Under the pieces are notes generated by a model. That model was not told where the DNA came from. It saw nothing but the letters and a program-made list of their open reading frames with translations, and made no database searches. Shown here in pieces: positions 26,889-43,363 of a DNA stretch of 64,000 nt. Source of the stretch: an uncultured Verrucomicrobiota bacterium (GTDB taxonomy: Bacteria > Verrucomicrobiota > Verrucomicrobiia > Limisphaerales > UBA9464); NCBI GenBank assembly GCA_903922605.1, contig CAIXUG010000083.1, positions 1 through 64,000 of the forward strand, in the 5' to 3' direction. Positions within the stretch are counted from its first letter, which is position 1, and each line of letters opens with the position of its first letter. The translations under genes and the position numbers were made by a program.

Positions 26889-28100
26889 TCAGAGGCGGAA
26901 AATGTTTTGCAGCGTGCTTTTCAGGCCGAAGCGCGAGCGGGGGCGGGTCTGGAGCCGCATGGCACCATAGCGCACCAGGCCGATGGCGGTGGCAAACTCG
27001 GGGTTGGCCAGCACATCCGCCGGACCGGAGACGTTGTGCGTGTGAGCACGGCCGACGGCCAGTTGGAAGGTGCGTTCGACGAGCGTCTCGATGCCGTTGG
27101 TCCGCGCGCCGCCGCCGCAGAGCACCACGCCCGCCCGGGCCAGCGCAAAGGCCTCGGAATTCACGAGGTCCCGGGCGATGAGATCAAGCGTCTCCTCCAG
27201 CCGGAGCGACATGATGCGGTGCATTTTTTCCACGCTGATGGTCTTGGAGGACTGCCCGGTCTCGCCGGGCAGCGTGTGCGTCGCGCCCTTGACCGCCGGA
27301 TCAAAGATCGCGCAGCCATGTTCGCGTTTCAGCTTTTCCGCCTGGTCAATCGGGATGTTCAGGCCGCAGGCGAGGTCGTTGGAAACGTGGTCACCGCCGA
27401 CGGCGAGCACACCGGAGTGCCGCAGAATGCCGCCGTGGAAGAAGGCGTATTCGGTCGTGCCCGCGCCGAGGTCAAGCAGCACGACGCCCTGCTTTTTCTG
27501 GTCCGGCGTGAGCACCGCCAGCGAGGAGGCCAGACCGTTGAACACGGGCTTTACCACGGAGATCTGCATGCCCTGTACCACGCGCCGCGCGGTCTCAATG
27601 CGGGAGGAGCGGCCCTGGATGACATGCACGCTGGCTTCCAGCACCCCGCCGACGAGGCCGAACGGGTGCTCGACGCCGGCCATGTCGTCCACCTTGAAAT
27701 CCTGGCGCACGCTGTCGATGACCTCGTGCTCCGCCGGGCAGTTGAACTGTTTGGCGTTGTTGACCGCGTCCACGACATCCTCGTGGGTGATGGTACGGTC
27801 AAAGGAGGCGATGGGATGCACGCCCCGGCTGTCCACGCAGCGGATGTGGTTGCCGCTGATGCCGAGGTAAACCTCCTCGATCTCCACGTTGGCCTGCTGC
27901 TCGGCCTCGGCGAGCGCGACGCGGATGTCATCGCCGGCCTTGACCGTGTCGGTGATCTCGCCCTTGCGGACGCCGCGCGAGGTGCACTGGCCGATGCCGA
28001 GGATGGTCAGCTCGCCCTTCGCGCCGGCCTCACCGACGGCGGCGCAGACTTTGTGGGTGCCGATCTCGAGACCGACAATGATTTGGCCGGGATCAAACAT
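26889..28100 (-). CDS. ftsA: cell-division actin homologue FtsA
   Basis: A 403-residue actin-fold ATPase that anchors FtsZ to the membrane. It has phosphate-1 VGLEIGTHKVCAAVG (9-23), the 1C domain (about 85-165), phosphate-2 VVLLDLGAGTTEYAFF (about 214-230) and the adenosine loop VVLCGGGARTNGI (about 335-347). The last residues (RSRFGLKSTLQNIFRL) form the amphipathic membrane-targeting helix. The gene overlaps ftsQ by 8 bp and lies 18 bp upstream of ftsZ. Confidence 0.94.
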   Translation of the reverse strand: MFDPGQIIVGLEIGTHKVCAAVGEAGAKGELTILGIGQCTSRGVRKGEITDTVKAGDDIRVALAEAEQQANVEIEEVYLGISGNHIRCVDSRGVHPIASFDRTITHEDVVDAVNNAKQFNCPAEHEVIDSVRQDFKVDDMAGVEHPFGLVGGVLEASVHVIQGRSSRIETARRVVQGMQISVVKPVFNGLASSLAVLTPDQKKQGVVLLDLGAGTTEYAFFHGGILRHSGVLAVGGDHVSNDLACGLNIPIDQAEKLKREHGCAIFDPAVKGATHTLPGETGQSSKTISVEKMHRIMSLRLEETLDLIARDLVNSEAFALARAGVVLCGGGARTNGIETLVERTFQLAVGRAHTHNVSGPADVLANPEFATAIGLVRYGAMRLQTRPRSRFGLKSTLQNIFRL

Positions 28101-29061
28101 GGCGGGTGGGCTTTCGTTTGGGGCGGACAGTCTTGGGTATGGGGTCGGGAGCGGAGGCGGGCGCGGCGCTGGCCTCGATCCATTTCAAGGGCGCATTGCC
28201 GCGCACGCTGAGGTCGAGCGTGCCGATGGCATGGCCGCGGGCGATGGCCTGCTCATGCACGGCGCGCCATTCGCGGAGCTGCCGGTCGAAGTCCTCGCCC
28301 GCGAGCGTCACCCGGGCGCCCTGGTTGCTCAGCACGACCAGCACGCCGGGCGAGGCGATGTCCACGGACAGAAGCTCGGTGACTCCGGCCATGGCCGAGG
28401 CGTCAAAGCCGGCGATCAGCTTCAGGGCGGCCAGCACGCGCTGATCCATCACGGTCTGGCCCGCCGAGAAGGTCACGGCGGTCATGCCGTTGAGCAGCGG
28501 CAGCGCGGCTTCGGCCTCGACGATTTCCACCGGGGCGTGGCCGCGCTCGAAGGGAATGAGCACATGGCCCGTGTCATCGAGCAGGAAGTAGCCCTGGACA
28601 TCGCCCGCCGACGGCAGGAGCACCCGGGCCACCGGCACCCGCTCGCGAACGCCGATCCGCAGCGTGTCGGGAAATTCGAGCCGCACGGTCGCCTCCTCGA
28701 TGCGCGGATGCCGCAGCAGCCGCTGGCGCAGCACGTAGAGGTCGATGGTGAGGACGTTGCGTCCGGGCTGCACGCCCGCGAGCCGCCGGATCTCCTCCTC
28801 GGTCAGCACGCCGTCGCGCGTCACGATCAGCTGCCGGAGGGCGAGGGCATCGATCTGGTTGAGCCAGCGATCTCGGGCCGTCTGCCAGACGAGATTGCCG
28901 CCGAACCAGAGCGTGGCCAGCAGGGCCATGCTCAGGAGCGGCTTGAACCACCACGGGCGGCGCGTGCGCGGCACCAGCGCGCCCTCACCGGTCTCGGCAA
29001 ACAGCCTGTAACCGGCGTCACGGCGCCGGTTGCGGGAGGAGTTTTGGAAGAGGCGGAACAT
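28093..29061 (-). CDS. ftsQ: cell-division protein FtsQ/DivIB
   Basis: A bitopic inner-membrane protein of 322 residues that links cytoplasmic and periplasmic division proteins. It has a basic cytoplasmic tail (1-36), one membrane span (about 38-60, WWFKPLLSMALLATLWFGG), a POTRA domain (about 72-145, QLIVTRDGVLTEEEIRRLAG) and the FtsQ beta domain (about 150-290). A Pro/Lys-rich tail closes the protein. Position between ddl and ftsA is canonical. Confidence 0.88.
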   Translation of the reverse strand: MFRLFQNSSRNRRRDAGYRLFAETGEGALVPRTRRPWWFKPLLSMALLATLWFGGNLVWQTARDRWLNQIDALALRQLIVTRDGVLTEEEIRRLAGVQPGRNVLTIDLYVLRQRLLRHPRIEEATVRLEFPDTLRIGVRERVPVARVLLPSAGDVQGYFLLDDTGHVLIPFERGHAPVEIVEAEAALPLLNGMTAVTFSAGQTVMDQRVLAALKLIAGFDASAMAGVTELLSVDIASPGVLVVLSNQGARVTLAGEDFDRQLREWRAVHEQAIARGHAIGTLDLSVRGNAPLKWIEASAAPASAPDPIPKTVRPKRKPTRHV

Positions 29062-29067: not shown

Positions 29068-29976
29068 CTAGGTCCGGGGGGAGCGCGCGAGCGCAAGTTC
29101 GATCATGCGCTGGCAAAGCTGGGGGAAACCGAGGCCGGCGGCGGCGGCGGCCTTGGGCAGCAGGCTGGTCTCGGTCATGCCCGGCAGGGTGTTGACCTCG
29201 AGCACGACCGGTGAGCCGTTGGCCCGCACCATCACGTCCACGCGTCCGTAATCGCGGCCGCCCACCGCCTGAAAGGCACCGAGCGCGGCGGCCTGGATGC
29301 GGGCGGTCGTCGCTTCGTCAAACGGGGCGGGGCACAGGTACTCGGTGCGCCCGGCGGTATATTTGTTCGTGTAGTCGTAGGCCCCCTCGCGCGGGCGGAC
29401 TTCCACGATCGGCAGCGCTTTGCCATCGAGGATGCCCACCGTGGTCTCGCGACCGACGATGCGCTCCTCCATCACCACCTCGCCGCCGAAGCGCAGCGAT
29501 TCGGCGAGGGCGACCGGAAACTCCTCGACGCGGTCCACGAACTGCAGCCCCACGCTGCTGCCTTGACGGGTCGGCTTGAGCACGACCGGCGGCTGCCAGC
29601 CTTCGGGCCAGGGCACCACGGAATTGAAGACCGCGAACCGCGCTGTCGGCACGCCGGCGGCCAGGCAGCGGCGCTTCGTCACGACCTTGTCAAAAGCGAA
29701 CAGGCTCGCGGCCACCCCACAGCCGGTGTAGGGCACGCCGAGCTGTTCCAGCTCCGCCTGCACGGTGCCGTCCTCGCCATAGGTTCCGTGCAGCGCCAGC
29801 AGGACGGCCTCCGTTCCGGTGCCGAGTTTCAACGCGCCCGGCAGCGGGTCCACCTCGTCCACTGTGTGACCGAGCGAACGCAGCGCCTTGGCGACCGCCG
29901 CGCCGGAGCGGAGCGAAACCTCGCGTTCGGCGGAAGGTCCGCCGAGCAGGACAGTGAGATGAAGCGGCGCGCTCAT
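29068..29976 (-). CDS. ddl: D-alanine--D-alanine ligase
   Basis: An ATP-grasp enzyme that makes the D-Ala-D-Ala dipeptide for peptidoglycan. It is 302 residues long, the usual short Ddl length. Motifs include VLLGGPSAEREVSLRSG (8-24), LLALHGTYGEDGTVQ, the ATP-grasp LKPTRQGSSVGLQ and the metal-binding VLEVNTLPGMTETSL. The long open frame to 30357 is a shadow of murB. ATG 29976 overlaps the murB stop by ATGA. Confidence 0.93.
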   Translation of the reverse strand: MSAPLHLTVLLGGPSAEREVSLRSGAAVAKALRSLGHTVDEVDPLPGALKLGTGTEAVLLALHGTYGEDGTVQAELEQLGVPYTGCGVAASLFAFDKVVTKRRCLAAGVPTARFAVFNSVVPWPEGWQPPVVLKPTRQGSSVGLQFVDRVEEFPVALAESLRFGGEVVMEERIVGRETTVGILDGKALPIVEVRPREGAYDYTNKYTAGRTEYLCPAPFDEATTARIQAAALGAFQAVGGRDYGRVDVMVRANGSPVVLEVNTLPGMTETSLLPKAAAAAGLGFPQLCQRMIELALARSPRT

Positions 29977-30953
29977 GACGGGTCTTCGCCGACGATTTCC
30001 ACCTCGGTCTCCAGTTCGATGCCGCGCGCCTCGCGGGCGCGGGTCTTCACCAGCTCGATCAGCGCGAGCACGTCGCTCGCGGTGGCGTTGCCGAGGTTCA
30101 CGAAGAAATTGGCGTGCACGTCGCTCACCATCGCGCCGCCGACGCGGGTGCCCTTGAGGCCCAGTTCGTCGATGAGTTTGCCGGCGGGCTGCGTGGGCGA
30201 GGGATTCTTGAACGTGCAGCCGGCGCTCGGCTGGTTCGGCTGGGAATCCCACCGCTTGCGGCTGTAGGTGTCCATGCGGGCCTTCACCGTTTCCGCGTCG
30301 GTCACGGTGCCGCGCAGCACCGCACCCACGGCAATGGCCTCGCGCAGCAGTGGGCACGAACGGTAGGTGAACGGAACCTCGGCGACGGGCACGTCGCGCA
30401 CCGTGGCGTCCCGCGTGACATAGCGCAGGCGCTCAACGACGTCGAAGGTCCAGCTCTGCATCGCGCCCGCGTTCATGCGGAGCGCACCGCCCAGCGAGCC
30501 GGGGATGCCCTCGAGAAATTCCAGTCCGCCCAGCCCCGTGCGTCGTGCCTCGGTAGCGATGAGCTTGAGCTTCGCGCCCGCGCCGGCGTGGATGCGATCT
30601 TCCTTCACCTCGATGGCGGAGAAGGCGGTGTGGGCGAGGGAGATCACGACTCCGCGGATGCCACCGTCACGGATCAGCAGGTTCGAGCCGCGACCAAGCA
30701 CGAAGAAGGGGACCTCCATCTGCCCGCAGATTTCGATCACCGTGCAGAGCGCGTGTTCGCAATCTGGCTCGACGTAGATGTCCGCCGGGCCGCCCACGCG
30801 CAGGGTGGTGCGTTTGGCGAGCGGCTCGTCGCGGCGCAACAGTGTTTCCAACGGCAGCGCGCCCTGCAGCTCCTCGAACAGGTCGAGCACGCGGATGGAT
30901 CGCTCCGCCAGGGATTCGGCCGCATTCGTGGGGTTGAACGGAACGAGATTCAT
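29973..30953 (-). CDS. murB: UDP-N-acetylenolpyruvoylglucosamine reductase MurB
   Basis: A flavoenzyme that reduces UDP-GlcNAc-enolpyruvate to UDP-MurNAc. It is 326 residues long. The FAD-binding region includes RVGGPADIYVEP and VLGRGSNLLIRDGGIRG (about 85-105), then LEFLEGIPGSLGGALRMNAG. The substrate domain carries the SAGCTFKNP motif, with Cys where E. coli MurB has Ser, as in the type II group. It overlaps murG upstream and ddl downstream, each by 4 bp. murC, usually next to murB, is absent. Confidence 0.93.
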   Translation of the reverse strand: MNLVPFNPTNAAESLAERSIRVLDLFEELQGALPLETLLRRDEPLAKRTTLRVGGPADIYVEPDCEHALCTVIEICGQMEVPFFVLGRGSNLLIRDGGIRGVVISLAHTAFSAIEVKEDRIHAGAGAKLKLIATEARRTGLGGLEFLEGIPGSLGGALRMNAGAMQSWTFDVVERLRYVTRDATVRDVPVAEVPFTYRSCPLLREAIAVGAVLRGTVTDAETVKARMDTYSRKRWDSQPNQPSAGCTFKNPSPTQPAGKLIDELGLKGTRVGGAMVSDVHANFFVNLGNATASDVLALIELVKTRAREARGIELETEVEIVGEDPS

Positions 30954-32134
30954 CGCGCGCCCTCCGGTTTGCCGGTGGTCATGACGTGGCCCGGCCGTGA
31001 CACCGCCGGGGTTGAGGAGGCGAGACCACGGTCCTTCACGTGTGCCAGAATGCGGTCGGCGATTTCGGCGGCGGCGTTGGGGCGGTGGTTCCGCGCCATG
31101 GCGGCGGACATGAGCTGCAACTGGCCGGGGTTATCGCAAAGTTCCGTCACCAGGCCGGCCAGCGACTGCGCGCTGGCCGACGTCTGCTCGAGCAGCACCG
31201 CGCCGCCGGTCTCGACGATGGCGTTGGCGTTGTGCAGCTGGTGATTGTCCGTAGCGGCGGGGAAGGGGACCAGAATCGCGGGCACCTGCATCGCGGCCAG
31301 TTCGGCGAGCGAAGACGCCCCACTGCGGCTGACGGTCAGCGTGGCCGCGCCGAGCGGCAGCTCCATCTCGGAGCAGAAAGGCTGCACTCGGGCACGGCGG
31401 CCCAACGGTTCGTAAGCGGCCTTCACCTCGTCGTAATCTTGTGTGCCGGTGAGGTGGAAGAACTGGAGCTCCGGCAGCGCCGCCGACAACTGCGGCAGCG
31501 CGCCAACCATGAGCCGGTTGAGCCCGCTGGCACCCTGGCTTCCGCCCACGATGAGCAGCAGCGGCTTGGCGGCGTTGAAACCCAGGGCAGCCCGCGCCCC
31601 GACCACATCCATCGGGGAAAATTGCGGACGCACCGGCGTGCCCGTGACGGTCGCGCGTTTCTGACGGAGCCTCCGGGTGGCGGCGGCGAAGCCGACGAAG
31701 CATTCGTCCACCCACGGGGCAAGCCAACGGTTGGCGCGCCCAGGAATCGTGTTCGACTCGTGGAGGAAAGTGACAGCCCCGGCATTTTTTCCGGCGAAGA
31801 CCGGCGGAGCGCTGGTGAAACCGCCCATGGCGAGGACCGCCTGCGGCGGCTGCGGCTGGAACGCGCGCCGGGCGGCGCGCCAGGAGCGGAAGCTGGCCGC
31901 GAGGAATTGCAGATAGTTGCGCCCGCTCAGGCCCACCGCCGGCAGCGTGATGATGTCAAAGTCATTCGCCAGGCCACGAACCGCCTGCTGGTCCACTTCC
32001 TTGGGAGAAATGAGCAGGGTCACCAGGCTGCCGCGCGCGATCAGTTCGTGACCGACCGCGAGACCGGGAAAGAGGTGGCCGCCGGTGCCGCCGCAGGCGA
32101 TGGCCACTCGCAGGGCTGGCCGTTCCGGGTTCAT
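30950..32134 (-). CDS. murG: lipid II synthase MurG (GT28 glycosyltransferase)
   Basis: A membrane-associated transferase that adds GlcNAc from UDP-GlcNAc to lipid I. It is 394 residues long. The N-terminal glycine-rich loop is ACGGTGGHLFPGLAVG (13-28), followed by VLAMGGFTSAPPVFAG. The C-terminal UDP-GlcNAc site contains LIVGGSQGASGLNRL, AATLTVSRSGASSLAELAA and VPFPAATDNHQLHNA. It overlaps ftsW by 4 bp. Confidence 0.94.
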   Translation of the reverse strand: MNPERPALRVAIACGGTGGHLFPGLAVGHELIARGSLVTLLISPKEVDQQAVRGLANDFDIITLPAVGLSGRNYLQFLAASFRSWRAARRAFQPQPPQAVLAMGGFTSAPPVFAGKNAGAVTFLHESNTIPGRANRWLAPWVDECFVGFAAATRRLRQKRATVTGTPVRPQFSPMDVVGARAALGFNAAKPLLLIVGGSQGASGLNRLMVGALPQLSAALPELQFFHLTGTQDYDEVKAAYEPLGRRARVQPFCSEMELPLGAATLTVSRSGASSLAELAAMQVPAILVPFPAATDNHQLHNANAIVETGGAVLLEQTSASAQSLAGLVTELCDNPGQLQLMSAAMARNHRPNAAAEIADRILAHVKDRGLASSTPAVSRPGHVMTTGKPEGAR

Positions 32135-33255
32135 TCGGGCAGGTCGGTATCGAGGGTGTCGAAAGGATTGGTGCCGGACCGCTGGGACGAGGTCTCGGTC
32201 GCGCCCTGACGGGCCACGCTGACCAGCAGGCCGACCAGCGCCAGCATCAGCACCACGCCGGTGCCGCCACGGCTGACAAACGGCAGGGGCATGCCCTTGT
32301 TGGGCAGCAGGTCGGTCACCACCCCCAGATTCACGGCGGCCTGCGCGGCGATCACGAAGGTGATGCTTCCGGCCAGCAGCGTGCCAAAGGCATCGGGCGC
32401 GGCATGGGTGATCATCGCCCCGCAGATGAGGATGACGACGAACACGCCCACGACGGCGAGGGTGAAGCCGAGCCCCAGTTCCTCGCCGACCACGGGGAAG
32501 ATGAAGTCGGTGTGCTGTTCGGGAATGTTAAATTTGAAAGCGCCCCGGCCCAGCCCGGCACCGTCCACGCCGCCCTCGCCAAAGGCGTAGAGCGACTCCT
32601 GCACCTGCTGGTAGTCGTCCTTGTTCTGTTCGGGATGCCGGAAGGCGTTCACGCGCTTCATCGCGTAGTCGCTGTTCATCACCAGGGCGGCAAAACCCGC
32701 GGCGCAGAGCAGCGCCGGCAGCGTCACGTGCCACCAGCGGACGCCGGCCACGAGCATCAGGAGGAAGGTCACCAGTCCGAGCAGCAGCGTGGTGCCCTTG
32801 TCCGGCTCGACCAGGACAAGTGCAAGCGGCGGCACGGCGATGGCGGCCATGCCGAGCACGCCGGAGAAAAAGTGGCCCATCCGGTGCGGGAACCTGGCCC
32901 CGAACCAGGCCAGCGCAACCACCAGCCCGAGCTTGGCGAACTCGGAGGGCTGGATGCCGAAGAGCCAGCGCTGTGCACCCTTCATGCTCGTGCCCAGGGG
33001 GGTGAGCGTGAGCAGCAGCAGCAGCACGCAGGCCCCGTAGAGCGGCCAGGCGAAGCGCTGCAGCAGGTGGTAGTCAATCCGCGCCATCACCCACAGCGCC
33101 ACGAAGCCGACCCCGCAGGCGATGGCCTGCTTCAGCACCCAGGTGTGGAGCAGAGAGTCGCCACCCTTGAGCATGGTGGCGCTCGCGAGCATCACCACGC
33201 TGAGGGCGACCAGCGAGCCGACGGCCAGCAGCAGGGTCGTGATGATGCGGTTCAT
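32131..33255 (-). CDS. ftsW: SEDS glycosyltransferase FtsW
   Basis: A polytopic inner-membrane protein of 374 residues and about ten spans. SEDS signatures are visible: KGAQRWLFGIQPSEFAKLGL, the EPDKGTTLLLGLVTFLLM loop region, ERxx-like NDYAMKRVNAFRHPEQNKDDYQ and the C-terminal LPFVSRGGTGVVLMLALVGL. It polymerises septal glycan strands together with FtsI. Location directly upstream of murG in the dcw operon identifies it as FtsW rather than RodA. Confidence 0.93.
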   Translation of the reverse strand: MNRIITTLLLAVGSLVALSVVMLASATMLKGGDSLLHTWVLKQAIACGVGFVALWVMARIDYHLLQRFAWPLYGACVLLLLLTLTPLGTSMKGAQRWLFGIQPSEFAKLGLVVALAWFGARFPHRMGHFFSGVLGMAAIAVPPLALVLVEPDKGTTLLLGLVTFLLMLVAGVRWWHVTLPALLCAAGFAALVMNSDYAMKRVNAFRHPEQNKDDYQQVQESLYAFGEGGVDGAGLGRGAFKFNIPEQHTDFIFPVVGEELGLGFTLAVVGVFVVILICGAMITHAAPDAFGTLLAGSITFVIAAQAAVNLGVVTDLLPNKGMPLPFVSRGGTGVVLMLALVGLLVSVARQGATETSSQRSGTNPFDTLDTDLPE

Positions 33256-33323: not shown

Positions 33324-34181
33324 TTACTTGGGCAGGCCCCCGGTTGCGGGAGGCAGGGTCACCGTCGTGGGGGTCGCGACCGGAGCGGTCGTGGTCGGGG
33401 TTGCGGCCGGAGTGGCTTCGGTCGCCTTGCCGGGGATCTTCAGCTTCTGGCCAACCTTGATGTCATTTGATTTGAGACCGTTGGCGGCGCGGATCGCCTT
33501 CACGGTGGTGCCGTGCCGCTTCGCGATCTTGGTGAGGTTGTCACCGCCCTTGACCGTGTAGGTCGAGGTCTCGCCCATGGCGGCGGGCTCGCCGGCGGCG
33601 GCGACTTCGTTGCCGGGCTTATGAATAGCGGAAGCCGTGGCGGAGCCGCTGCCGCCTGGAATCTGGATGGTCTGGCCGACCTTCAGCTTGCCGAGATCCA
33701 CGTTCGGGTTGGCCTCCTTCAGGGCCTTCAGCGTGACGCCATGCTTGTGGGCGAGGTTGTAGGCGATGTCGCCCTTCTGGATCTTGTATTCCGAGGCGGA
33801 CGTGGACGCCGGCGTCGAATCAGGCGTCGTGGCCGGGACTGCGGTGATGGGCGCCGGCTCAAAATTGGTGCCGGTGGCCAGCGGCGGCAGGTTGGTGCCT
33901 CCGATGGGACCGCCGACGAGCCCGACGCCGTTGGTCGAAAGCCCGCCGATGATGGGCCCATTTGTGTCGCTCAGGATCGGGGACGCGTTGGTGAGGGCGT
34001 CGGACAGGCCCGTCGTGTCGGTGGCCTTGTTCTCCTCGCGCTTGCAGCCGAGGATCAGGAAACCGCCGAGGACGAAGACGTGCAGGCCAACGATCAGGGC
34101 CGCAATCTGGAGGGATGATTTGCTCTTGGCCTGCGTTTCCAGCAGCGAGCCTTGGGGTGCGAGTGGGTTCGGAGTGCTCAT
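33324..34181 (-). CDS. membrane-anchored double-LysM protein in the dcw operon
   Basis: A 285-residue protein. It has a cytoplasmic N-terminus (1-23), one membrane span (about 24-45, ending GC) and a Thr/Gly/Pro-rich linker. Two LysM domains follow (about 131-175, EYKIQKGDIAYNLAHKHGVT; about 207-250, TYTVKGGDNLTKIAKRHGTT) and then a Thr/Pro-rich tail with many APVATPTT-like units. LysM binds GlcNAc in peptidoglycan, so the protein probably tethers the membrane to the wall at division sites. It sits where murD normally lies, between mraY and ftsW. Confidence 0.82.
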   Translation of the reverse strand: MSTPNPLAPQGSLLETQAKSKSSLQIAALIVGLHVFVLGGFLILGCKREENKATDTTGLSDALTNASPILSDTNGPIIGGLSTNGVGLVGGPIGGTNLPPLATGTNFEPAPITAVPATTPDSTPASTSASEYKIQKGDIAYNLAHKHGVTLKALKEANPNVDLGKLKVGQTIQIPGGSGSATASAIHKPGNEVAAAGEPAAMGETSTYTVKGGDNLTKIAKRHGTTVKAIRAANGLKSNDIKVGQKLKIPGKATEATPAATPTTTAPVATPTTVTLPPATGGLPK

Positions 34182-34630
34182 GGTATTTCAGCGCCGCCTG
34201 GCGGCAGTATTCGAGGAATGGGTTGGTGAGGATTGACGCCGTGGTGGCTCCTCAAGCCACCACGACGCCAAAAATAAAGCTGCACAAACAGGGGCAGTCC
34301 CGCCGCTCCCACCACACGTGGAAGCCACAGCCCGACCACGACGCATCCGGCGCATGCCGGGCATCGTGGAATAACAGGCTGGAACAAAGGGGAATTCGCA
34401 CCGACCGCCGCCGCCGCCGCGTCCATTGCCAACATGACGGCCCGTATCGCCGCCAACGCGACGCATTAAACCGGGGTCGGACCGGGGTGCAAGGGGCGAA
34501 ACGAGCCCAGATGCGGAAGCGGGGACGACAAAGCGCGGAGCGGGGAGCGCGGAAAGGGGAGCTGAAAGCAGGGGAGCACTGCCGGCAGCGGGCTGGCCAA
34601 TTCGGAATTTGGAATTTGGAATTCGAAATT
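34182..34630. other. intergenic gap within the dcw operon
   Basis: This 449-bp gap is the only sizeable break in the operon. It contains a perfect 9-bp hairpin (GTGGTGGCT / AGCCACCAC, 34241-34263) 59 bp before the LysM start on the minus strand. Next to the mraY stop codon is a heptamer array (34597-34632) with TTTGGAA units. A 92-codon ORF (34178-34456, minus) overlaps the LysM start by ATGA but has unconvincing composition. A second promoter for the downstream half of the operon could be here. Confidence 0.5.
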
Positions 34631-34632
34631 TC
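34597..34632. repeat. tandem heptamer (TTTGGAA) repeat at the mraY 3' end
   Basis: Tandem TTTGGAA-like heptamers, flanked by GGCCAATTCGGAA and ATTCGAAATTTC, abut the mraY stop codon. The period of 7 bp matches the array inside mqnC, although the unit sequence differs. Confidence 0.65.
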
Positions 34633-35758
34633 ATCGGACCTTCAGCGTGCTCAGCGCGACCACCGCGCAGAGGATTGCGGCGATGTAAAACCGCGCCACA
34701 ATCTTGGACTCGGCCAGACCCTTTTTCCGGAAATGGTGATGCAGCGGCGACATCAGGAAGATGCGCCGGCCCTGCCCGTACTTCCGCTTGGTGATCTTGA
34801 ACCAGCCCACCTGCAGCATCACGCTCACGGCTTCCGCCACGAAGACGCCGCCGGCGATGAACAGCACAAACGGCTGATGTATGAGCACCGCCATGAGGCC
34901 GAGCAACCCGCCGATGGCCAGGGAGCCGGTGTCGCCCATGAACACCTCGGCGGGATGGCAGTTGAACCAGAGGAACCCGAGACACGCCCCGACAAGGGCG
35001 GCGCACACGACTGTGAGTTCCGACGCGCCGGTCACGTGCGGCACGAGCAGATACTTCGCAAACACCGCGTTGCCCGCGATGTAGGTCATCACGAGAAACA
35101 CCAGCGTGCAGATCAGCGTGCAGCCGATGGCAAGGCCGTCCATGCCGTCCGTGAGGTTCACGGCATTGCTGCTGCCTACAATTGTAAACACCGTCAGCAG
35201 CCCGCCGAGGATCGGCAGCCCCACGAGCAGCGGCGCCTTGAGGAAGGGCACCTGGATCTCGTTGATCAGGGCCGTGGTGGAGGGCAGCCGCCAGAGGTAC
35301 ACCGCGATGAAGGCGGCCAGGAGGAACTGCGTGCAGAGCTTCACGCGCGATTTTGCGCCCTCGGCGTCCTGCTTCGTCACCTTCAGCCAGTCGTCATAGA
35401 AACCGAGGCCCGCGAGCACGATGGTGGTCAGCGCGGTGAGGAGCACGAGCGGGTTCCACTGCGCCCAGAGCAGCACCGAGAGGTCCAGCGCCAGCACGAT
35501 CAGGATTCCGCCCATCGTGGGCGTGCCGCGCTTCGCGGTGTCGGCGGCGGCGGCCGAGGAGTCGGTCTGCCCCTCCTTCACATCCTTGGGCCGGTAATCC
35601 TGCCGGTACTTGAGGTCGCTCAGCCAGGCGATGAGCCTGGGTCCGAGCAGCATCGAGAGCAGCAGCGCCGTGACGGCCGCGCCGGCGCTGCGGAAGGTGA
35701 CGTAGCGGAACACCGACCACGGCGCAAACGGGAACAGTTCTGACAGGCGGTAAAGCAT
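34631..35758 (-). CDS. mraY: phospho-MurNAc-pentapeptide transferase MraY
   Basis: A polytopic membrane enzyme of 375 residues that makes lipid I from UDP-MurNAc-pentapeptide and undecaprenyl phosphate. It has about ten spans. Catalytic and substrate motifs include GTPTMGGILIV, GFYDDWLKVT (the DD pair), NLTDGMDGLAIG and FMGDTGSLAIGG, followed by the HHHF-like HHHFRKKGLAESKIV. It lies 3 bp after murF. Confidence 0.94.
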   Translation of the reverse strand: MLYRLSELFPFAPWSVFRYVTFRSAGAAVTALLLSMLLGPRLIAWLSDLKYRQDYRPKDVKEGQTDSSAAAADTAKRGTPTMGGILIVLALDLSVLLWAQWNPLVLLTALTTIVLAGLGFYDDWLKVTKQDAEGAKSRVKLCTQFLLAAFIAVYLWRLPSTTALINEIQVPFLKAPLLVGLPILGGLLTVFTIVGSSNAVNLTDGMDGLAIGCTLICTLVFLVMTYIAGNAVFAKYLLVPHVTGASELTVVCAALVGACLGFLWFNCHPAEVFMGDTGSLAIGGLLGLMAVLIHQPFVLFIAGGVFVAEAVSVMLQVGWFKITKRKYGQGRRIFLMSPLHHHFRKKGLAESKIVARFYIAAILCAVVALSTLKVR

Positions 35759-35761: not shown

Positions 35762-37171
35762 TCAGGCGGCGAGCAGGTCCCTCCGCAACCCGGTCTGTTT
35801 GATGATCACATCCACCAGCCGCTCGAGCCGGCTGGAACGCGAGGCCTTCACCAGCACCGCGTCCCCGGCGCGCAGATAATGCAGCAGCGCGGGGGCCGCC
35901 AGCTCCACGCCCGGGAAGGCGCAGGCGCGGTCGGTGCCGGCGGATTCGGCGGTGAGCACCGACCAGCGGCCCACGGCAAACACGGCGTCGATCCCCAGGC
36001 GGGCGGCCGCTCGACCGACCTCCGCGTGCGCGGTCTCGGAGTGGCGGCCCAGTTCCGCCATATCGCCAAGCACCGCCACACGGCGGCCCGCACACGGGAG
36101 GTCGGAGAGCGTTTGCAGCGCCGCCAACATGGAGTCGGCATTCGCGTTGTAAGTGTCGTCCAGTATCCGGATGCCCGCGACCTCGCGGACATTGAGACGC
36201 TGTTTTGCAGGGACAGAAACCGCCAGGCCGTCGCGGGCGTCGCCAGGCGACATGCCCAGCTCACAGACGACCGCCAGTCCTAACAGCGCGTTGGGAACTG
36301 AATGACGGCCTGGCAAAGGGATCGTAAATTCGCCGCACCAATCGGGTCGGGGTGCGGTCACGGAAAAGGTCGTGGCTTCCCACGTCATCTGGCGGATTTC
36401 GGCGCGCCATTCGTTGGCGGGGCCGAAGCCGACCCGCACGACGCGGGCGCGGGTGCGGCCCGCGAGATGCTTCTGGAAGGAGCATTCGCCGTTCAGCACC
36501 AGCAGCCCGCCTTCCGCAGCGGTCGGCAGCTGCTGGGCCAGTGTGCCTTCCTCGGCGGCCACCCCGGCAAGGTCGCCGAAGAATTCCAGATGCTCGCGGC
36601 CAATGCTCGTGACGATGCCGATGCGCGGCGCGATCATCTCCACCAGCGGAGCCAGTTCGCCCGGATGATTGGTGCCTGCCTCGAGCACGGCGGCACCATG
36701 CGTCGGCTCCAGCCGCAGCAGCGTGGCGGGCACGCCGATGTCGTTGTTGAAGCTCGCCTCGCTCTTTAGGGTGGAGCACTTGCGGGCCAGCAGGCTGGCA
36801 AGAATCTCCTTCGTGGTGGTTTTGCCGTTGGAGCCGCCGACGCAGATCACCGGCAGGTCGAACTGCCGCCGATACGCCGCGGCGATCCGGCCATAGGCGG
36901 ACCGGGTCTCCTCCACGATGATGGCCGGCGTCTGTGGCGGCATTTTCGCCAGCTGGCTGCGCGCGATGACCACTGCCACCGCCCCTTTGGAGCGGACTTC
37001 CGCCAGAAAGTCGTGGCCGTCGAACCGTTCACCGGCCACGGCCACAAACAGGTCACCGGACCGCACGTCTCGGGAGTCCGTGACCACGCGCAACACCGTG
37101 ATGGCGGGAGAAATCAGGAGAGATTCCCCGCCCGTGGCGGTAACAAAGAAGCTGAGGGGGCGCGGGTCCAT
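35762..37171 (-). CDS. murF: UDP-MurNAc-tripeptide--D-Ala-D-Ala ligase MurF
   Basis: An ATP-dependent Mur ligase of 469 residues. The N-terminal domain begins with TDSRDVRSGDLFVAVAGERF. The P-loop is intact (GGSNGKTTT, 112-120), and the central domain includes EASFNNDIGVPATLLRLE, AVLEAGTNHPGELAPL and GREHLEFF. The C-terminal domain has LDDTYNANADSMLAAL and VAVLGDMAELG. The intact P-loop contrasts with the MurE-like protein of the same operon. It lies 1 bp from the SIMPL gene. Confidence 0.93.
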   Translation of the reverse strand: MDPRPLSFFVTATGGESLLISPAITVLRVVTDSRDVRSGDLFVAVAGERFDGHDFLAEVRSKGAVAVVIARSQLAKMPPQTPAIIVEETRSAYGRIAAAYRRQFDLPVICVGGSNGKTTTKEILASLLARKCSTLKSEASFNNDIGVPATLLRLEPTHGAAVLEAGTNHPGELAPLVEMIAPRIGIVTSIGREHLEFFGDLAGVAAEEGTLAQQLPTAAEGGLLVLNGECSFQKHLAGRTRARVVRVGFGPANEWRAEIRQMTWEATTFSVTAPRPDWCGEFTIPLPGRHSVPNALLGLAVVCELGMSPGDARDGLAVSVPAKQRLNVREVAGIRILDDTYNANADSMLAALQTLSDLPCAGRRVAVLGDMAELGRHSETAHAEVGRAAARLGIDAVFAVGRWSVLTAESAGTDRACAFPGVELAAPALLHYLRAGDAVLVKASRSSRLERLVDVIIKQTGLRRDLLAA

Positions 37172-37172: not shown

Positions 37173-37940
37173 TTACCTCATCGTGAACGCCGCGTTGACC
37201 ACTGCGGTGATGGTCTTCTCGCGGCTCGTGGTGTCGTTGCGGCCTTCCCAGCTCGTCTCGCTGGAATAAAGCGGCGTAATCTGGAAAACACCCATCTTGG
37301 CCGAGCGCAGCCCGCCGATGCTGCGTCCACCCTGGACCGAAATCTGGTCGGCCCGCGCGCGGGCGTCCTTCGTCGCCTCGGCGAGCATTTCGACCTTGGC
37401 ATCGCCGGCCTTGGTGTAAACGAATTCCGGCGCGGCGGGCGCAAGCTGCACGCCCTGCTCGACCAGCGTGGCGGAGTCGCGGTCCAGCTGCATCAGGCGG
37501 TCCACGTCGGCCGAGCGGATCTCGACCTTCTGCTCCAGCTTGTAGCCGACGATGTGCGTGCTGGAGGTTTCCCCGCCGTTGTTCTTGAGGGTCTGGAGTC
37601 CTTCCATCTCGTTGATCACGATCGGGGTGAACGTGTGGTTGGTGATGCCGCCGGCGGCGAAGAAGGCGGCCACTTTCGAGCGGTCCTCCTTCAGCCGCTG
37701 CTGCGCCTCGAGCAGCGTGCCTGCGGTCACGTTGAACGTGGCCCGCCACACGATGAAATCCGCCATGACATTGCGGCGCGCGGAGCCGGTGACCGCGATG
37801 GAGTCGGAGTCCGCAATCTTGAGCCATGTGCGTGTGAAGAGCATCGCCGAAAGCACGAGGCCGGCGGCCAGAAACAGCCCGGCCAGCACCCCGAAGAGCT
37901 GGGGCCGGTAGGTGGCGTTCATGGGCTGGGCGGCGTTCAC
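37173..37940 (-). CDS. SIMPL-domain (DUF541) membrane-anchored protein
   Basis: A 255-residue protein. It has a short cytoplasmic start, one span (about 13-33, GVLAGLFLAAGLVLSAMLF) and a DUF541/SIMPL domain (about 45-250). Characteristic stretches are SIAVTGSARRNVMADFIVWR, the TLKNNGGETSSTHIVGYKLEQK core and the ATKDARARADQISVQGG helix. SIMPL proteins are secreted or periplasmic and are linked to stress, with no defined biochemical activity. It is placed unusually between the MurE-like gene and murF, 1 bp from murF. Confidence 0.82.
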   Translation of the reverse strand: MNAAQPMNATYRPQLFGVLAGLFLAAGLVLSAMLFTRTWLKIADSDSIAVTGSARRNVMADFIVWRATFNVTAGTLLEAQQRLKEDRSKVAAFFAAGGITNHTFTPIVINEMEGLQTLKNNGGETSSTHIVGYKLEQKVEIRSADVDRLMQLDRDSATLVEQGVQLAPAAPEFVYTKAGDAKVEMLAEATKDARARADQISVQGGRSIGGLRSAKMGVFQITPLYSSETSWEGRNDTTSREKTITAVVNAAFTMR

Positions 37941-38086: not shown

Positions 38087-39406
38087 TTACAACTCAGTTC
38101 CTCCGTCTCCATGGCCTCGGGCTGCCAGCGCTAAAATTGCGGTCGCATGGTCGTCACAGGGCAGGACGGCACCGCCGACCTCCTGGACGCGCCGGTGCGC
38201 CTTGCCCGCGATCACCACCACGTCGTCCGGTCCGGCGATCCGGATGGCGGCGTGCACGGCGCGCTCGCGGTTCGGTTCAAAGATGAACCGGGCAGCGGGG
38301 GCGGAACTCATCATCTGGGCGGACAGCGCCATGACTGACTCGTGACGTGGGTTGTCGGCGGTCACAAAAATGCGGTCGGCCGCCGAGGCGACCCGCCCCA
38401 GCTCGATCCGGGTGGTGGCGTCAAACTCGGCGGGAGCGCCGGTGACGAGCAGCAGGCGGCCCGGGCCGCGCACCAGTTCGCGCGCTTCGGCCAGCGCCGT
38501 CGCCAGCTCCGCCGGCGTATGTGCCGCGTCAAGAAAGACACCGAACGGCTGTCCCGCGTGAACGGGTTCCAGAAAGCCGGAGGTGGTCCGCAGAGTCTTC
38601 AGCGAGGCCAGCAACGGTTTGCGCGCCGCCCCGGCGGCCAGCGCCGCCTCAAACGCCTCGCGCAACGCGAGGGCGTTGCCCCGGCCGGCCAGCGGTGCCA
38701 GCAAAAATCCATCGGGCAGCGGCAGGCGCAGGCCGCGCCAAGTCAGCACGGTGTCCGGAGCCAGCGGACGGGCTTCGGTCAGGGCGACCGCCCCGGCAAA
38801 CTTGGTGCCGGCCAGATTCGTGCTGGTATTGCCGGTGAGTTCGATGACGGCAGAATTGCCACCGGCGCGCTCGTGCTGGGCAAGGAAAGAGTGGAGTTCC
38901 AGCGCGTCCATCTTGGACACGGGCCGGGGCAGGCGGCGGTCGCCGGCCTCGCAGCCGAGTTCCCCCAGCAGTGCGACGTCACGTCCCGTGGCACGCAGCA
39001 GCCGGGCGAGCAGGTTCGCGACATTCGAGGAATGACGGCGGGTTCCCGGGGCCGCGCTGTCGGGCGCTTGGACGATGAACAGTTCAAGCCGCTGCGCGGC
39101 GTTGCCAAAGAGAGCCGAAGCCGCCTCGGCGTAGGCCGCGTGGGCGTCCGCAACTTCCAGGCGCGGCAGGTTCGGCGGCAGCATCGTGTCCGGCTCGCAG
39201 ATGATGGCCGCAGCCCCGCGCTCGGCGGCGGCAAACACCTGATACGGGTTGGCCCCACGCGATTCCGGCAGCAGGCAGAAGACGAAGCCGGGCTCGACGG
39301 TGCGCGCATCGTGCGTGACGCCGTGCACCAGCCGCTCGCCCACGCCCCGTGCGGCGAGGCGGGCGTTGCTCAATTTGCGGGCGAAACTGGAGAGGGGCAG
39401 TTGCAT
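38087..39406 (-). CDS. MurE-like protein lacking the ATP-binding loop
   Basis: A 439-residue homologue of UDP-MurNAc-tripeptide synthetase, shorter than the usual 480-500. The N-terminal domain fits MurE (HGVTHDARTVEPGFVFCLLP), and the C-terminal domain keeps FLDAAHTPAELATAL, TADNPRHES (the MurE DNPR motif, 350-354 region) and VIAGKAHRRVQEVGG. However, the central P-loop expected near residue 115-125 (GTNGKTTT) is replaced by QAPDSAAPGTRRHSSN. The metal-binding EVSSH helix reads ELTGNTST, and the DHLDYH segment is missing. No other frame restores these. It is probably a non-catalytic paralogue. It lies 1 bp from ftsI and starts at ATG 39406. Confidence 0.8.
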   Translation of the reverse strand: MQLPLSSFARKLSNARLAARGVGERLVHGVTHDARTVEPGFVFCLLPESRGANPYQVFAAAERGAAAIICEPDTMLPPNLPRLEVADAHAAYAEAASALFGNAAQRLELFIVQAPDSAAPGTRRHSSNVANLLARLLRATGRDVALLGELGCEAGDRRLPRPVSKMDALELHSFLAQHERAGGNSAVIELTGNTSTNLAGTKFAGAVALTEARPLAPDTVLTWRGLRLPLPDGFLLAPLAGRGNALALREAFEAALAAGAARKPLLASLKTLRTTSGFLEPVHAGQPFGVFLDAAHTPAELATALAEARELVRGPGRLLLVTGAPAEFDATTRIELGRVASAADRIFVTADNPRHESVMALSAQMMSSAPAARFIFEPNRERAVHAAIRIAGPDDVVVIAGKAHRRVQEVGGAVLPCDDHATAILALAARGHGDGGTEL

Positions 39407-39407: not shown

Positions 39408-41486
39408 TCAGGGACGGGCGGCGAGGTGAGTAGCGCCACCGGCTGGCAGGGCCAGGGCGGTGGCGTCGTTGGTGCGGGGCGTTGGAGGCAGAGCGAGATA
39501 GCTGCCGACTTCCTGGCCGATCTTGGCGAAAAGCGGGGCGCAGGCCTTGCCGCCATAGCCGGCCTTGCCTTTCAGGATCGGATCATCGGCGGCCAGCATG
39601 ATGCAGACCTCGGGGTTTTCCGCCGGGAAGAAGCCGACGAACGAGGCGTAGTAATGGTCGGCCGCATACACTTTCCGGACCGGATCCCATTTCTTGGCCG
39701 TGCCGGTTTTGCCGGCCACGTCGAAGTCCGCCAGCGCCGCCAGCTTGCCGGTGCCGACCAGCACCACCCGGCGCATGGCCCGGATCATCTGGTGGGCGGT
39801 TTCCGGCCGGATGACCTGCCGCACCGCGTGGGGTTCAAACTGGCGTACGGTTTTACCGTCCGCAGTCGTGAGCCGGCGGACCAGGTGCGGCTCCATCAGC
39901 ATTCCCTCGTTCGCGATGGCGGCGGCGGCCATCGCCGTCTGCAGTGGGGTCGCATAAAGGCCGTACCCGAAGGGCAAACTGCTGGAGGTGAGCCCGTCCC
40001 AGCGGGGGATGCCGCCACCGTGTTCACCGCCACACTCGATGCCGGTGCGGGCGAGGAAGCCGAAATTGCGGATGTAGGGCAGAAGCGAATTGGTGCCGAC
40101 CTGCAGACCGAGCTTCACGGCCCCCACGTTGCTGGAGTGGGCAAAGGCATCTTCCACCGTCGTGAGGCCGATGTTTTCACCCTGATCGTCGCGGATGATG
40201 CGGCGGGTGCCGGGCACGTTCCAGTGGCCACCTTCGCAGTTGATCGGCTGCTCCAGACTGACCAGCCCCAGATCCAGCGCCGCAGAATAGGTGACCATCT
40301 TGAAGGTCGAGCCGGGTTCGGAAGGCTGCATGATCGCGCGGTTCTGCAGCACCTCGAGCGAGGAGACATGGCGGGTGTTCGGGTTCCACGTCGGCCGGTT
40401 GGCCAGGGCGAGGATTTCACCCGTGCGAGGCCGCAGGACAATGGCGCTGATGCTCTTCGGGTTGAGCGTGCGCATGGCGTCGTCCAGCACGTCCTCGACG
40501 ATCGCCTGGATGTTCGCATCCAGGGTCAGCACGACGTTGAGACCGTCCGTGGGCGGGATTTCCTGCTGTCGCAGCGGCACCAGCTCACGGCCGCCGGCAC
40601 GGCGCGTTTCGATCATGCCATGCGAACCCTGCAGCTCGCGGTCGAACCGCTGCTCAATGCCGGAGGCTCCCAGCAGTTTGACCGGCAGGCGCACGCCGGG
40701 AGCGGGAACTTCGCTGCTGTTGGTGGCGTAACCGAGGACGTGGGCGGCCCGGTGGTCGAGGGTGTAGCGCCGCAGCTCCACGATCTCGGGATACAGGCCG
40801 GCGACGCGGCATTCGTTCGCATTGCTGCGCACGAGCGCGATCTCCGTGTTCAGCGCCTTGAACTGTGCCTTGGTCTGGCGCGACAGGCGCAGGCGCTCGG
40901 GCAGGTTCCACCAGGGCAGCGCCTTCTTGGCCGCGTCTCTGGCCGTGATCAGATTGCTCTTGGTCGTGGCCAGCTCGATTTCACGCTGATAACGGTTGGT
41001 CGTGAAGAAGGCCTCCAGCGCCATCCACCGCTCCATCGGCAGATTGGTGAAGACGCCGTTGTTGTGCCGCATGCGCTCGCGCTGGGCGAGCTGCAGCGAG
41101 ACGATGCTGTGGTTGGTCACCCGGTTGGTGACCGCCTGAAGATAGAGCGAGGGCTGCAGCCGGGTGAGCACCTCGGACTCGGGCAGGCCCACATAGGGTG
41201 CGACGATCCGGGCCACCTCCGGCGAGAACTGGCCCACCTTCAGGGGGTCGGCCCGGACCGTGACCGCAAACTCCGAGAGCAGGAGCGGAACCCCGTTGGC
41301 ATCCAGCACCGAACCGCGCCGCGCCGGGCGCATCACCCGGCGCAACGTGGCGTCGGCCGAATGCTCCGAAGGATGCGCGGGCTGGATCGCCTGCACAAAC
41401 ACGAGCCGACCGGCGAGCACGGCAAAGCCCACACAGTACAGGGCAACAATGCCCCATAGGCGTCGGGTCTGGCTGGTCGGGTTCAT
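39408..41486 (-). CDS. ftsI: septal transpeptidase FtsI (PBP3, class B)
   Basis: A class B penicillin-binding protein of 692 residues that cross-links septal peptidoglycan. It has one N-terminal span (about 11-31), a pedestal domain (about 50-290, with RRGSVLDANGVPL) and a transpeptidase domain. The active-site motifs are STFK (393-396), SSN (451-453) and KTGT (593-596). No PASTA domain is present. The pedestal is longer than in E. coli FtsI because of an extra helical insertion at about 150-220. It lies between ftsL and the MurE-like gene. Confidence 0.93.
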   Translation of the reverse strand: MNPTSQTRRLWGIVALYCVGFAVLAGRLVFVQAIQPAHPSEHSADATLRRVMRPARRGSVLDANGVPLLLSEFAVTVRADPLKVGQFSPEVARIVAPYVGLPESEVLTRLQPSLYLQAVTNRVTNHSIVSLQLAQRERMRHNNGVFTNLPMERWMALEAFFTTNRYQREIELATTKSNLITARDAAKKALPWWNLPERLRLSRQTKAQFKALNTEIALVRSNANECRVAGLYPEIVELRRYTLDHRAAHVLGYATNSSEVPAPGVRLPVKLLGASGIEQRFDRELQGSHGMIETRRAGGRELVPLRQQEIPPTDGLNVVLTLDANIQAIVEDVLDDAMRTLNPKSISAIVLRPRTGEILALANRPTWNPNTRHVSSLEVLQNRAIMQPSEPGSTFKMVTYSAALDLGLVSLEQPINCEGGHWNVPGTRRIIRDDQGENIGLTTVEDAFAHSSNVGAVKLGLQVGTNSLLPYIRNFGFLARTGIECGGEHGGGIPRWDGLTSSSLPFGYGLYATPLQTAMAAAAIANEGMLMEPHLVRRLTTADGKTVRQFEPHAVRQVIRPETAHQMIRAMRRVVLVGTGKLAALADFDVAGKTGTAKKWDPVRKVYAADHYYASFVGFFPAENPEVCIMLAADDPILKGKAGYGGKACAPLFAKIGQEVGSYLALPPTPRTNDATALALPAGGATHLAARP

Positions 41487-41897: not shown

Positions 41898-42845
41898 TCA
41901 GAGTTTGGTGATCACCCGGAGCTGGGCGCTGCGGGAGCGGGGGTTGGCGGCGAGTTCTTCTTCGGTCGGCAGGATGGGTTTGCGGGTGACTAGCTGCGCC
42001 CGGGGTGGGCGGGGGATGCGCACGTGCGGCAAGTCTTCCTCGCCCGCCGGCACATCGTAGTCGCGCGCCTCGTTGCGCATGAAATCCTTCACGATCCGGT
42101 CCTCGCCGGAATGAAAGGTAATGACGGCGAACACGCTGCCGGGAGCCAGCATCTGCAGGACGCCGGCCAGGCCGCGCTGCAATACCACCGTCTCGTCGTT
42201 GACCGTGATGCGCAGCGCCTGGAACGGCTTGGTCGCGGGGTCGGCCTTGCGCCCATGGCGCGGGCATTCCCGCGCAATACACGCCGCCAGCTGCTTCGTT
42301 GTCTCAAACTTCCGCATCTTCCGCTCCCGTTCAATGGCCCGCGCGATCCGCCGCGCGTCCCGCTCACCGTTTTCCCAAAAAATCCGGGCCAGTTCCTCGA
42401 CCGGCCACTCGTTCACCACCTGCGCCGCCGTCACCGGGTTGTCCGGCGACATCCGCATGTCGAGCGGCCCGTCCTGCTGGAAGCTGAACCCGCGCGCCGC
42501 CGTATCGAGCTGGTGGGAACTGACGCCCAGATCCAGCAGCGCGCCGGCACAGCTTCCCGCCGGCACCCAGTCCGCCGCCGCGGCGAAATTCATCTGCCGC
42601 AGCTCAAAACGCCCCGCGTAGGCCTGCAGCCGTTCAGCCGCCGCCGCGATGGCGCTCGGATCCTGATCGCAGGCGTAAAGGCGACCCGTCGGGGAACTGG
42701 CCTCCAGTATCGCCGCGCTGTGCCCAGCTCCACCACAGGTGCCGTCGAAATAGCTCGCGCCGTCCCGGGGACGCAGCGCCGCCAGGGTTTCGGCCAGCAA
42801 CACTGGGCGGTGGGCAAAGGGTGGGGTTGGGTTCACGCATGGCAC
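41898..42845 (-). CDS. rsmH: 16S rRNA m4C1402 methyltransferase RsmH (MraW)
   Basis: A SAM-dependent enzyme of 315 residues that N4-methylates 16S rRNA C1402. Motifs are HRPVLLAETLAALRP, YFDGTCGGAGHSAAILE (SAM site, about 33-49), GALLDLGVSSHQLD and GFSFQQDGPLDMRM. FHSGEDRIVKDFMR lies in the C-terminal part. Second or third position after mraZ is typical for the dcw operon. Confidence 0.94.
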   Translation of the reverse strand: MPCVNPTPPFAHRPVLLAETLAALRPRDGASYFDGTCGGAGHSAAILEASSPTGRLYACDQDPSAIAAAAERLQAYAGRFELRQMNFAAAADWVPAGSCAGALLDLGVSSHQLDTAARGFSFQQDGPLDMRMSPDNPVTAAQVVNEWPVEELARIFWENGERDARRIARAIERERKMRKFETTKQLAACIARECPRHGRKADPATKPFQALRITVNDETVVLQRGLAGVLQMLAPGSVFAVITFHSGEDRIVKDFMRNEARDYDVPAGEEDLPHVRIPRPPRAQLVTRKPILPTEEELAANPRSRSAQLRVITKL

Positions 42846-42850: not shown

Positions 42851-43363
42851 TCAGTCGAGTTTAACCACTTGGCCGGCTTTGTTCCGGTCCCGCAGCCGCC
42901 GCCAGGCATGATCCTGGTTGTCATTGGTCGGTGCGGCCGGAGGGGTTTGAAAAAGCACTTTGGGGTCGCGGCGCTCGACCACGGTCAGGCTGTCGTCATC
43001 GCGCAGGCTGTTTTGCAAGGGGCGGACGTTTTGCAGCCGGAATTCGCCCTGGACCAGCCGTCCATCCACACGTCGTCGGTTGCCGCCCAGCAGCCAGCCA
43101 AAAAAACTGTGCTTCGGTTTGAAAACCGACTTAGCAAACGTTAACGTTGAGGTGGGCTTAGTCGGTGCCGCTTGGCTGGCGGGCTTCGCCGGGTCTGTTG
43201 CCTCTTTGGCGTTGGCCGAGGAAAACAAGCCCGCATCGGCGGTGTTATCGGTAACGGACGGTTTAAACTTGGGCACTAGGCCAGGTTCAGCCGCTCGATA
43301 GGCGGGCTTGCGGCCCAAGCCCACCATGCTGCGACCCACTGCGAATAGATTGGACAAGCCCAT
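42851..43363 (-). CDS. unknown protein between mraZ and rsmH
   Basis: A 170-residue protein of unknown function. The N-terminus (MGLSNLFAVGRSMVGLGRK) is amphipathic and could touch the membrane. The middle is Ala/Lys/Thr/Pro-rich and probably disordered (about 40-80), and the C-terminal part (about 85-165, RVDGRLVQGEFRLQNVRPLQ) is polar with beta-like stretches. No signal peptide or known domain was recognised. It is separated from mraZ by 3 bp and from rsmH by 5 bp, so it is firmly part of the operon. Confidence 0.75.
   Translation of the reverse strand: MGLSNLFAVGRSMVGLGRKPAYRAAEPGLVPKFKPSVTDNTADAGLFSSANAKEATDPAKPASQAAPTKPTSTLTFAKSVFKPKHSFFGWLLGGNRRRVDGRLVQGEFRLQNVRPLQNSLRDDDSLTVVERRDPKVLFQTPPAAPTNDNQDHAWRRLRDRNKAGQVVKLD

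Follow-up and report, generated by a model that had tools for sequence, protein, structure and literature searches.

An apparent MurE-derived pseudoenzyme in the dcw cluster of Verrucomicrobiota in which MurC and MurD are not found

Introduction

Textbooks count MurC, MurD and MurE among the essential enzymes, and all three are drug targets. In 2025 the dcw genes of the superphylum were surveyed; the available text of that survey describes them as highly conserved in Verrucomicrobiota, and reports that some Planctomycetia have lost mur genes (PMC12283558).

Several described systems offer points of comparison for a lineage that departs from this pattern. Mpl is a recycling ligase that operates beside MurC to MurE; in the accessible part of PMC3060825 a series of regions of the enzyme (P-loop, AFFDKRSK, RRM, HHP, SNGG, EPRSNT) is tied to its substrates, and PaMpl is reported to have low activity with L-Ala and L-Ala-D-Glu. 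The MurD2/MurL system of Xanthomonas, as excerpted from PMC8788868 and PMC5808125, belongs to a MurI-less lineage and sets the D-Glu centre after the peptide bond has been made, acting on the UDP-linked peptide produced by MurC and a MurD-like ligase. The L-Ala-D/L-Glu epimerases are usually assigned to peptidoglycan degradation, according to the available portion of PMC5808125. Finally, PAP11, the MurE-like subunit of the plastid RNA polymerase (8r6s, 8xzv, 8w9z, 9epc), is a MurE homologue that serves as a subunit of a larger complex. We found no description, in open-licence PMC papers, of a loss of MurC to MurE with Mpl kept.

Here we analyse a stretch of 64,000 nucleotides (the window) from an uncultured Verrucomicrobiota bacterium (Limisphaerales; UBA9464; assembly GCA_903922605.1, contig CAIXUG010000083.1, positions 1-64,000, forward strand), and compare its dcw cluster, and the MurE homologue pMurE encoded within it, with a sample of 58 genomes from the same order. 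Of these, 35 belong to the same family; the genome of the window is 96% complete and the other 34 family genomes are 54-97% complete.

Results

The dcw cluster lacks murD and murC

The first-pass annotation had placed pMurE inside a complete dcw operon. The gene order does not bear this out, as mraY is followed by the LysM gene with no murD in between, and murG by murB with no murC (Table 1). The adjacency of mraY and the LysM gene without murD recurs in all nine family clusters that span the site, and the LysM gene keeps its place, between mraY or murD and ftsW, in MurC-positive and MurC-less clusters alike. A tblastn search for a murD remnant in the gap between mraY and the LysM gene, a tiny search, gave only weak matches, the best of which (E 0.004) overlaps the end of mraY, and we claim no remnant there. 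As far as the cluster shows, the synthesis of UDP-MurNAc and the steps that follow it look intact (murB, murF, mraY, murG, ftsW, ftsI). The start of pMurE was placed at the ATG at 39406; a longer in-frame ATG is also present at 39556. Upstream of rsmH, at the spot where mraZ would be expected, lies an ORF (42851-43363, 170 aa) without a Pfam match.

Table 1. Genes and sites of the dcw cluster in the window
Feature	Position	Strand	Details and evidence
pMurE (apparent MurE-derived pseudoenzyme)	38087..39406	-	439 aa; Pfam, alignment, AlphaFold2, Foldseek, dN/dS
ftsI (transpeptidase)	39408..41486	-	Stop codon one base before pMurE start
SIMPL/DUF541 protein	37173..37940	-	Between pMurE and murF; PF04402 1.5e-19
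murF, intact	35762..37171	-	TIGR01143 376.6 bits vs cut-off 288.6
mraY	34631..35758	-	PF00953 + PF10555
murD site of MurC-positive relatives, here without a murD gene	34182..34630	.	Gene order
LysM protein	33324..34181	-	PF01476; gene order
ftsW	32131..33255	-	PF01098
murG	30950..32134	-	PF04101 + PF03033
murB	29973..30953	-	Overlaps murG end, murC not between; Pfam + gene order
ddl (start approximate)	29068..29990	-	PF07478 + PF01820
ftsQ	28093..29061	-	PF08478
ftsA	26889..28100	-	PF14450
rsmH (mraW), near cluster head	41898..42845	-	PF01795

pMurE keeps a Mur fold without the ATP site

pMurE resembles canonical MurE in its fold, its place between ftsI and murF, and its C domain (PF02875; Pfam 3.9e-20). 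No middle domain (PF08245) was found in it by Pfam at E-values up to 1, and the NCBIfam MurE models match best in its C half, with scores of up to 190 bits that are far under the cut-offs. When pMurE is aligned with canonical MurE the middle domain is alignable but gutted: the segment APDSAAPGTRRHSSN (residues 114-128) occupies the position of the P-loop GTNGKTT, ELTGN stands at the position of EVSSH, and a deletion takes DHLDYH together with the next segment, which in MurE contains the carbamoylated lysine. The loss of P-loop, EVSSH and DHLDYH claimed in the first-pass annotation is thus real, and the landmarks that it listed as retained (DNPRHES, AAHTP, GKAHR) are indeed present in the window protein.

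The same motifs are missing from 31 distinct orthologues, none of which has a P-loop at this position. Twenty-five of these, from 24 family genomes and locus L083, form alignment A1, from which the window copies L001 and L005, L089 and a second, short L020 match were left out. The P-loop, EVSSH, DHLDYH, the lysine segment and the PGR arginine are lost in all 25 rows; the Glu of GKGHE is found in none and DNPR in 10. The remaining six copies, from named MAGs (L076, L077, L079-L082) and examined separately outside A1, also lack the ATP-site motifs, and all six have DNPR. Five full-length canonical MurE rows from the same order keep every motif, with one residue of DHLDYH varied in two of them. 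By its P-loop, by its EVSSH, DHLDYH and lysine segment, and by the combination of DNPR with the GKGHE site, pMurE does not group with catalytic MurE. The pMurE rows also have residues in common that are foreign to canonical MurE, for example P54, P77, G183 and G259. The N domain is unrecognisable in six of the 25 A1 rows; in L030-L034 and L083 it is replaced by other sequence, perhaps disordered. A separate case is the MurE of L028 (G050, frame 1264-2715), outside the 25 rows and otherwise canonical, which keeps P-loop, EVSSH and DHLDYH and, past the last of these, has lost about 81 residues in frame; G050 has a MurC above cut-off and no MurI match.

An AlphaFold2 model of pMurE built from 31 aligned rows is confident by its average scores (pLDDT 90.6, pTM 0.89). 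By E-value, Foldseek ranks first in the PDB the MurE-like subunit of the plastid RNA polymerase, with a TMq of 0.77; MurE structures come next, at TMq 0.65-0.82. A Mur fold nearest to MurE, in the syntenic place, makes pMurE a MurE by descent and fold.

pMurE is under purifying selection, with dN/dS of 0.056-0.33 in 10 pairs, where the relatives' frames, delimited by stop codons on both sides, may include a few codons before the start. Seven neighbouring genes gave 0.036-0.36 for a near pair and 0.18-0.43 for a distant pair (murF, ftsI and murG, 0.11-0.12 and 0.28-0.32, respectively), the distant-pair values being from G002 for the neighbour controls and from G003, 94% alike to it in pMurE, for pMurE. 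Since the constraint on pMurE resembles that on its neighbours, we regard it as a retained pseudoenzyme. The first-pass annotation had asked whether close relatives share the loss under purifying selection; they do, the loss being common to all orthologues examined, and this excludes a frameshift or sequencing error as the cause of the missing motifs. Its description of the protein as non-catalytic is likewise supported as far as sequence goes, in that the protein has the fold but not the ATP-site motifs, and is under constraint like that on its neighbours. pMurE is apparently this locus's own MurE gone dead, and conserved as a pseudoenzyme.

The gene is present in 24 of the 35 family genomes. 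Among named Verrucomicrobia MAGs it occurs at 14 loci, several with titles that point to lakes or ponds; one of the MAG records with pMurE, L082, is titled Akkermansia muciniphila, a label that looks wrong. pMurE had no match in the other 11 family genomes and is therefore not required. In five clusters without it (L126, L128-L131) the SIMPL gene or murF directly follows ftsI.

Stem-peptide ligases and glutamate racemase across the order

The first-pass annotation had proposed that pMurE is a paralogue with the true MurE elsewhere. For the genome of the window this is refuted: a PF08245 search, run on this genome alone, found three intact middle domains, which are those of MurF, Mpl and FolC, and a PF02875 search added only pMurE to these, so that neither search found a second, canonical murE, a murC or a murD. 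Unlike organisms with canonical MurE, this one thus pairs a MurE devoid of ATP and Mg motifs with a genome that has no second copy.

The family as a whole presents a similar picture. MurC scores above cut-off in 12 of the 58 genomes and in none of the 35 from the family. Matches to the MurC model number at most two in 29 family genomes (Mpl and MurF where both were found) and three or four in the remaining six, whose weakest ones are not among the matches listed. Searches with pMurE as query, which did pick up canonical MurE in other families, turned up no intact MurE in the remaining 34 genomes of the family. In eight MurC-positive genomes murE and murD are in place with their motifs intact, within the stretch fetched. 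Four genomes (G036, G040, G053, G057) have a MurC frame of 787-904 aa and no separate murB was seen in them, as in a MurC-MurB fusion. G049, scored as MurC-less, has an intact MurE and is only 75% complete; its MurC may therefore simply be unassembled, and we treat it as a doubtful case.

MurI was not found in the genome of the window. Across the order it scores above cut-off in eight genomes, all of them MurC-positive, and in none of the 46 MurC-less genomes (Fisher p 2.6e-7, uncorrected for kinship). Matches below cut-off occur in G012, G013, G018 and G024; in G013 the match is a fragment, scored at 107 bits, that lies at the edge of a contig. Four MurC-positive genomes are also without MurI, so loss of MurI is no proof of a bypass.

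Mpl is kept

The Mpl of the window's genome scores 442.4 bits against TIGR01081 (cut-off 388.7), and thus falls within the equivalog family. In the relatives, Mpl was told from MurC by score band in the MurC-model search. By this measure 44 of the 46 MurC-less genomes have an Mpl-like match, which is partial in three of them (G026, G029, G031); G021 (76% complete) and G032 (70% complete) have none. MurC-positive G053 has no Mpl among the matches listed, and Mpl is therefore not universal in the order.

The sequence features of the recycling enzyme, as given in the available part of PMC3060825, are largely preserved. The window's own Mpl has every motif named there, and so carries the Mpl-specific residues, with Ala375 read as Gly. 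Among 27 distinct Mpl copies the P-loop, AFFDKRSK, RRM, HHP and SNGG are each missing from at most one (GTHGKTTT in G051, EYD.AFFDKRSK in G002, SNGG in G027), and EPRSNT is unmatched in four (G039, G051, G054, G055). In its score above the TIGR01081 cut-off and in most of its peptide-site motifs this enzyme is like recycling Mpl; unlike the Mpl of PMC3060825 (as far as the available text describes it), which recycles beside MurC to MurE, it is, MurF apart, the sole enzyme found here that ligates peptide to UDP-MurNAc. Mpl being the only such ligase found, with its motifs mostly kept, the stem would most simply be loaded whole.

Gradation in MurD and MurE among relatives

Judged by sequence, murD and murE are at graded stages of change among the relatives. 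Where MurC and MurE are gone, MurD has an intact P-loop in G054 (GTNGKTTT) and altered ones in G055 (GTNGKGTT), G035 (GTNGKTPA), G039 (GTSGKSST) and G046 (GAGGKSTT), with GK retained in all four; the MurD middle domain of G046 lies just below the Pfam cut-off. In G043 a murD fragment near mraY (L135, 7492-7713; about 50% identity over 70-80 residues) is, by its sequence and position, a pseudogene remnant in the dcw cluster, and in G048, which belongs to another family, no middle domain is detectable in the genome's own MurE.

A quick tree (LG+G4) was built from seven dcw proteins of 19 MurC-less and 8 MurC-positive genomes, 27 of the 58 in all. It shows five changes of MurC state, of which starred branches force at least three. 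A single ancient loss of MurC is disfavoured, in that a single MurC-less clade is rejected on this tree (p-AU 0.022). Independent-pairs tests, with three supported pairs, had no power.

A dipeptide epimerase and the search for a free-peptide ligase

A dipeptide epimerase of at least 50% identity is present in 37 of the 46 MurC-less and four of the 12 MurC-positive genomes (p 0.003, uncorrected for kinship). It is missing from nine MurC-less genomes, including all three of genus g2, so an epimerase step cannot be general. The best structural match of the window genome's own epimerase is 3iji, labelled muconate cycloisomerase, which we take to be a dipeptide epimerase; 1jpd, an L-Ala-D/L-Glu epimerase, is third. 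The protein aligns lengthwise with 3iji, and KxK, DAN, EQP, DE, K and DLD, presumably the catalytic residues, all align, so that it has the catalytic residues and DxD of the enolase superfamily. It lies under the NCBIfam cut-offs for DgcA (193 of 400) and the YcjG type (122 of 343). A partial epimerase with an internal TGA (G009:C16:39590-39862) is perhaps a decaying copy.

In a search for candidate ligases beside the epimerase and Mpl genes, no conserved neighbour was seen beyond genus level in the compared loci, bar folC, which in 11 family genomes sits no more than 1.2 kb from the epimerase gene, in divergent or tandem orientation. FolC forms an amide to the Glu amine and then one from the Glu gamma carboxylate, and both bond types are needed here. 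As the one further Mur-superfamily ligase that the genome of the window has, FolC is a speculative candidate for the free-peptide ligase. We hold it to be only an idea because it has no second copy (no genome has two matches above cut-off) and its motifs are canonical by eye; FolC above cut-off is absent from G008, G028 and G042, and is partial in G021.

Other ligase families gave no fitting candidate. The window's genome has no L-amino-acid-ligase type ATP-grasp protein (PF13535). Searches of 25 of the 58 genomes found RimK in seven, the window's own genome being without it; GCS2 in one; and the glutamine-synthetase type (Gln-synt_C) in all 25, with a weak (54.6 bits) and in no way distinctive match in the window's genome. 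The search for a Ddl paralogue, likewise over 25 genomes, gave no suitable protein; in the window's genome it found only the dcw Ddl and three weak matches in carboxylase-size frames. No ligase for a free tripeptide was thus identified among PF13535, RimK, Ddl, Gln-synt_C, GCS2 or a second FolC. The sole GCS2 match lies directly after a RimK-like ATP-grasp ORF at L184 (G046:C82).

Discussion

We have described a lineage in which MurC is not found, MurE is dead or gone and MurD is gone or altered, and which differs in these respects from Xanthomonas. As in that MurI-less lineage (PMC8788868, PMC5808125, in their available parts), the D-Glu centre would here be set after a peptide bond has been made. 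The best reading of our data, to which we give moderate credence, is that Mpl loads the tripeptide whole, that MurC, MurD, MurE and MurI became dispensable, and that the dead MurE stays as a scaffold. The lineage would have abandoned stepwise building of the stem peptide, with MurC and MurD gone and MurI not found, and pMurE could have lost its chemistry because the stem was no longer made stepwise. Mpl would then carry the whole flux by attaching to the nucleotide a ready-made tripeptide, itself made as a free peptide, in which the D-Glu would come from L-Ala-L-Glu by way of the conserved dipeptide epimerase. That this epimerase may supply D-Glu is a proposal that gives a biosynthetic role to an enzyme usually assigned to degradation.

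The role of pMurE within this scheme is a more evenly balanced question. Its place, fold and constraint suggest, at about even chances, that it is kept to act, without catalysis, as a scaffold or adaptor for FtsI, MurF and further Mur proteins of the cytoplasm. PAP11, its top structural match by E-value, is a precedent for a MurE homologue within a larger complex; unlike pMurE, it is a plant transcription-complex protein, at about 20% identity, and the tie between the two is common descent from MurE alone. More tentatively still, a putative second route to UDP-MurNAc-tripeptide (putative ligases joining L-Ala to L-Glu and, after epimerisation to L-Ala-D-Glu, adding mDAP, and Mpl loading the free product in one step) may be older than the losses, and may have made MurC, MurD, MurE and MurI dispensable several times in the order.

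Because a free-peptide ligase was not identified, scavenging and an altered stem both keep some weight. Obligate scavenging, in which tripeptide from the peptidoglycan of other bacteria and from the cell's own turnover is loaded by Mpl and pMurE is a relic or a sensor, would fit the retention of Mpl, the failure to find a replacement ligase in the families searched, and repeated losses whose graded changes resemble auxotrophy. It is nevertheless unlikely, since supply would need to meet all wall growth, and these genomes, mostly 3.4-6.7 Mb with an otherwise well-kept dcw cluster, are unlike those of dependants. Rather less probable is a stem without D-Glu and mDAP, with Mpl acting like MurC or adding another short peptide before MurF. 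Such a stem would account for the joint loss of MurI, MurD and MurE with no missing ligase, and would draw on the low activity of PaMpl noted above; however, the tripeptide-site motifs of Mpl are mostly kept, and in the window's genome both Mpl and MurF score above their equivalog cut-offs (TIGR01081 and TIGR01143, respectively).

Two further readings concern pMurE and the data themselves. Retention of the fold and C domain under constraint, and of the operon place where the gene is present, might be explained if pMurE were a catalytic MurE of a new kind, either P-loop-free or with a partner that supplies ATP. We consider this highly improbable given the uniform loss of the ATP and Mg motifs and of the GKGHE Glu across A1, the patchy DNPR, and the absence of any match in 11 family genomes that otherwise look alike. 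An assembly or binning artefact, with the missing genes on unbinned contigs or the loop lost by sequence error, might be suspected because the family genomes are, by contig number, draft assemblies, and incomplete to varying degrees. This reading is refuted for practical purposes: murD and murC are missing from within an unbroken dcw cluster in the window, mraY adjoins the LysM gene in every family cluster that spans the site, no family genome has a MurC above cut-off, and pMurE is under purifying selection.

In these bacteria the wall and division cluster is kept, whilst three of the four stem ligases are gone or, in the case of pMurE, apparently dead, and a glutamate racemase is not found. 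If our reading is correct, a stem can be assembled away from the nucleotide; if scavenging is, bacteria can take their wall peptide from their surroundings. We have seen no precedent for either. Attachment of a ready-made stem by Mpl, if true, would be a new way of building the bacterial wall.
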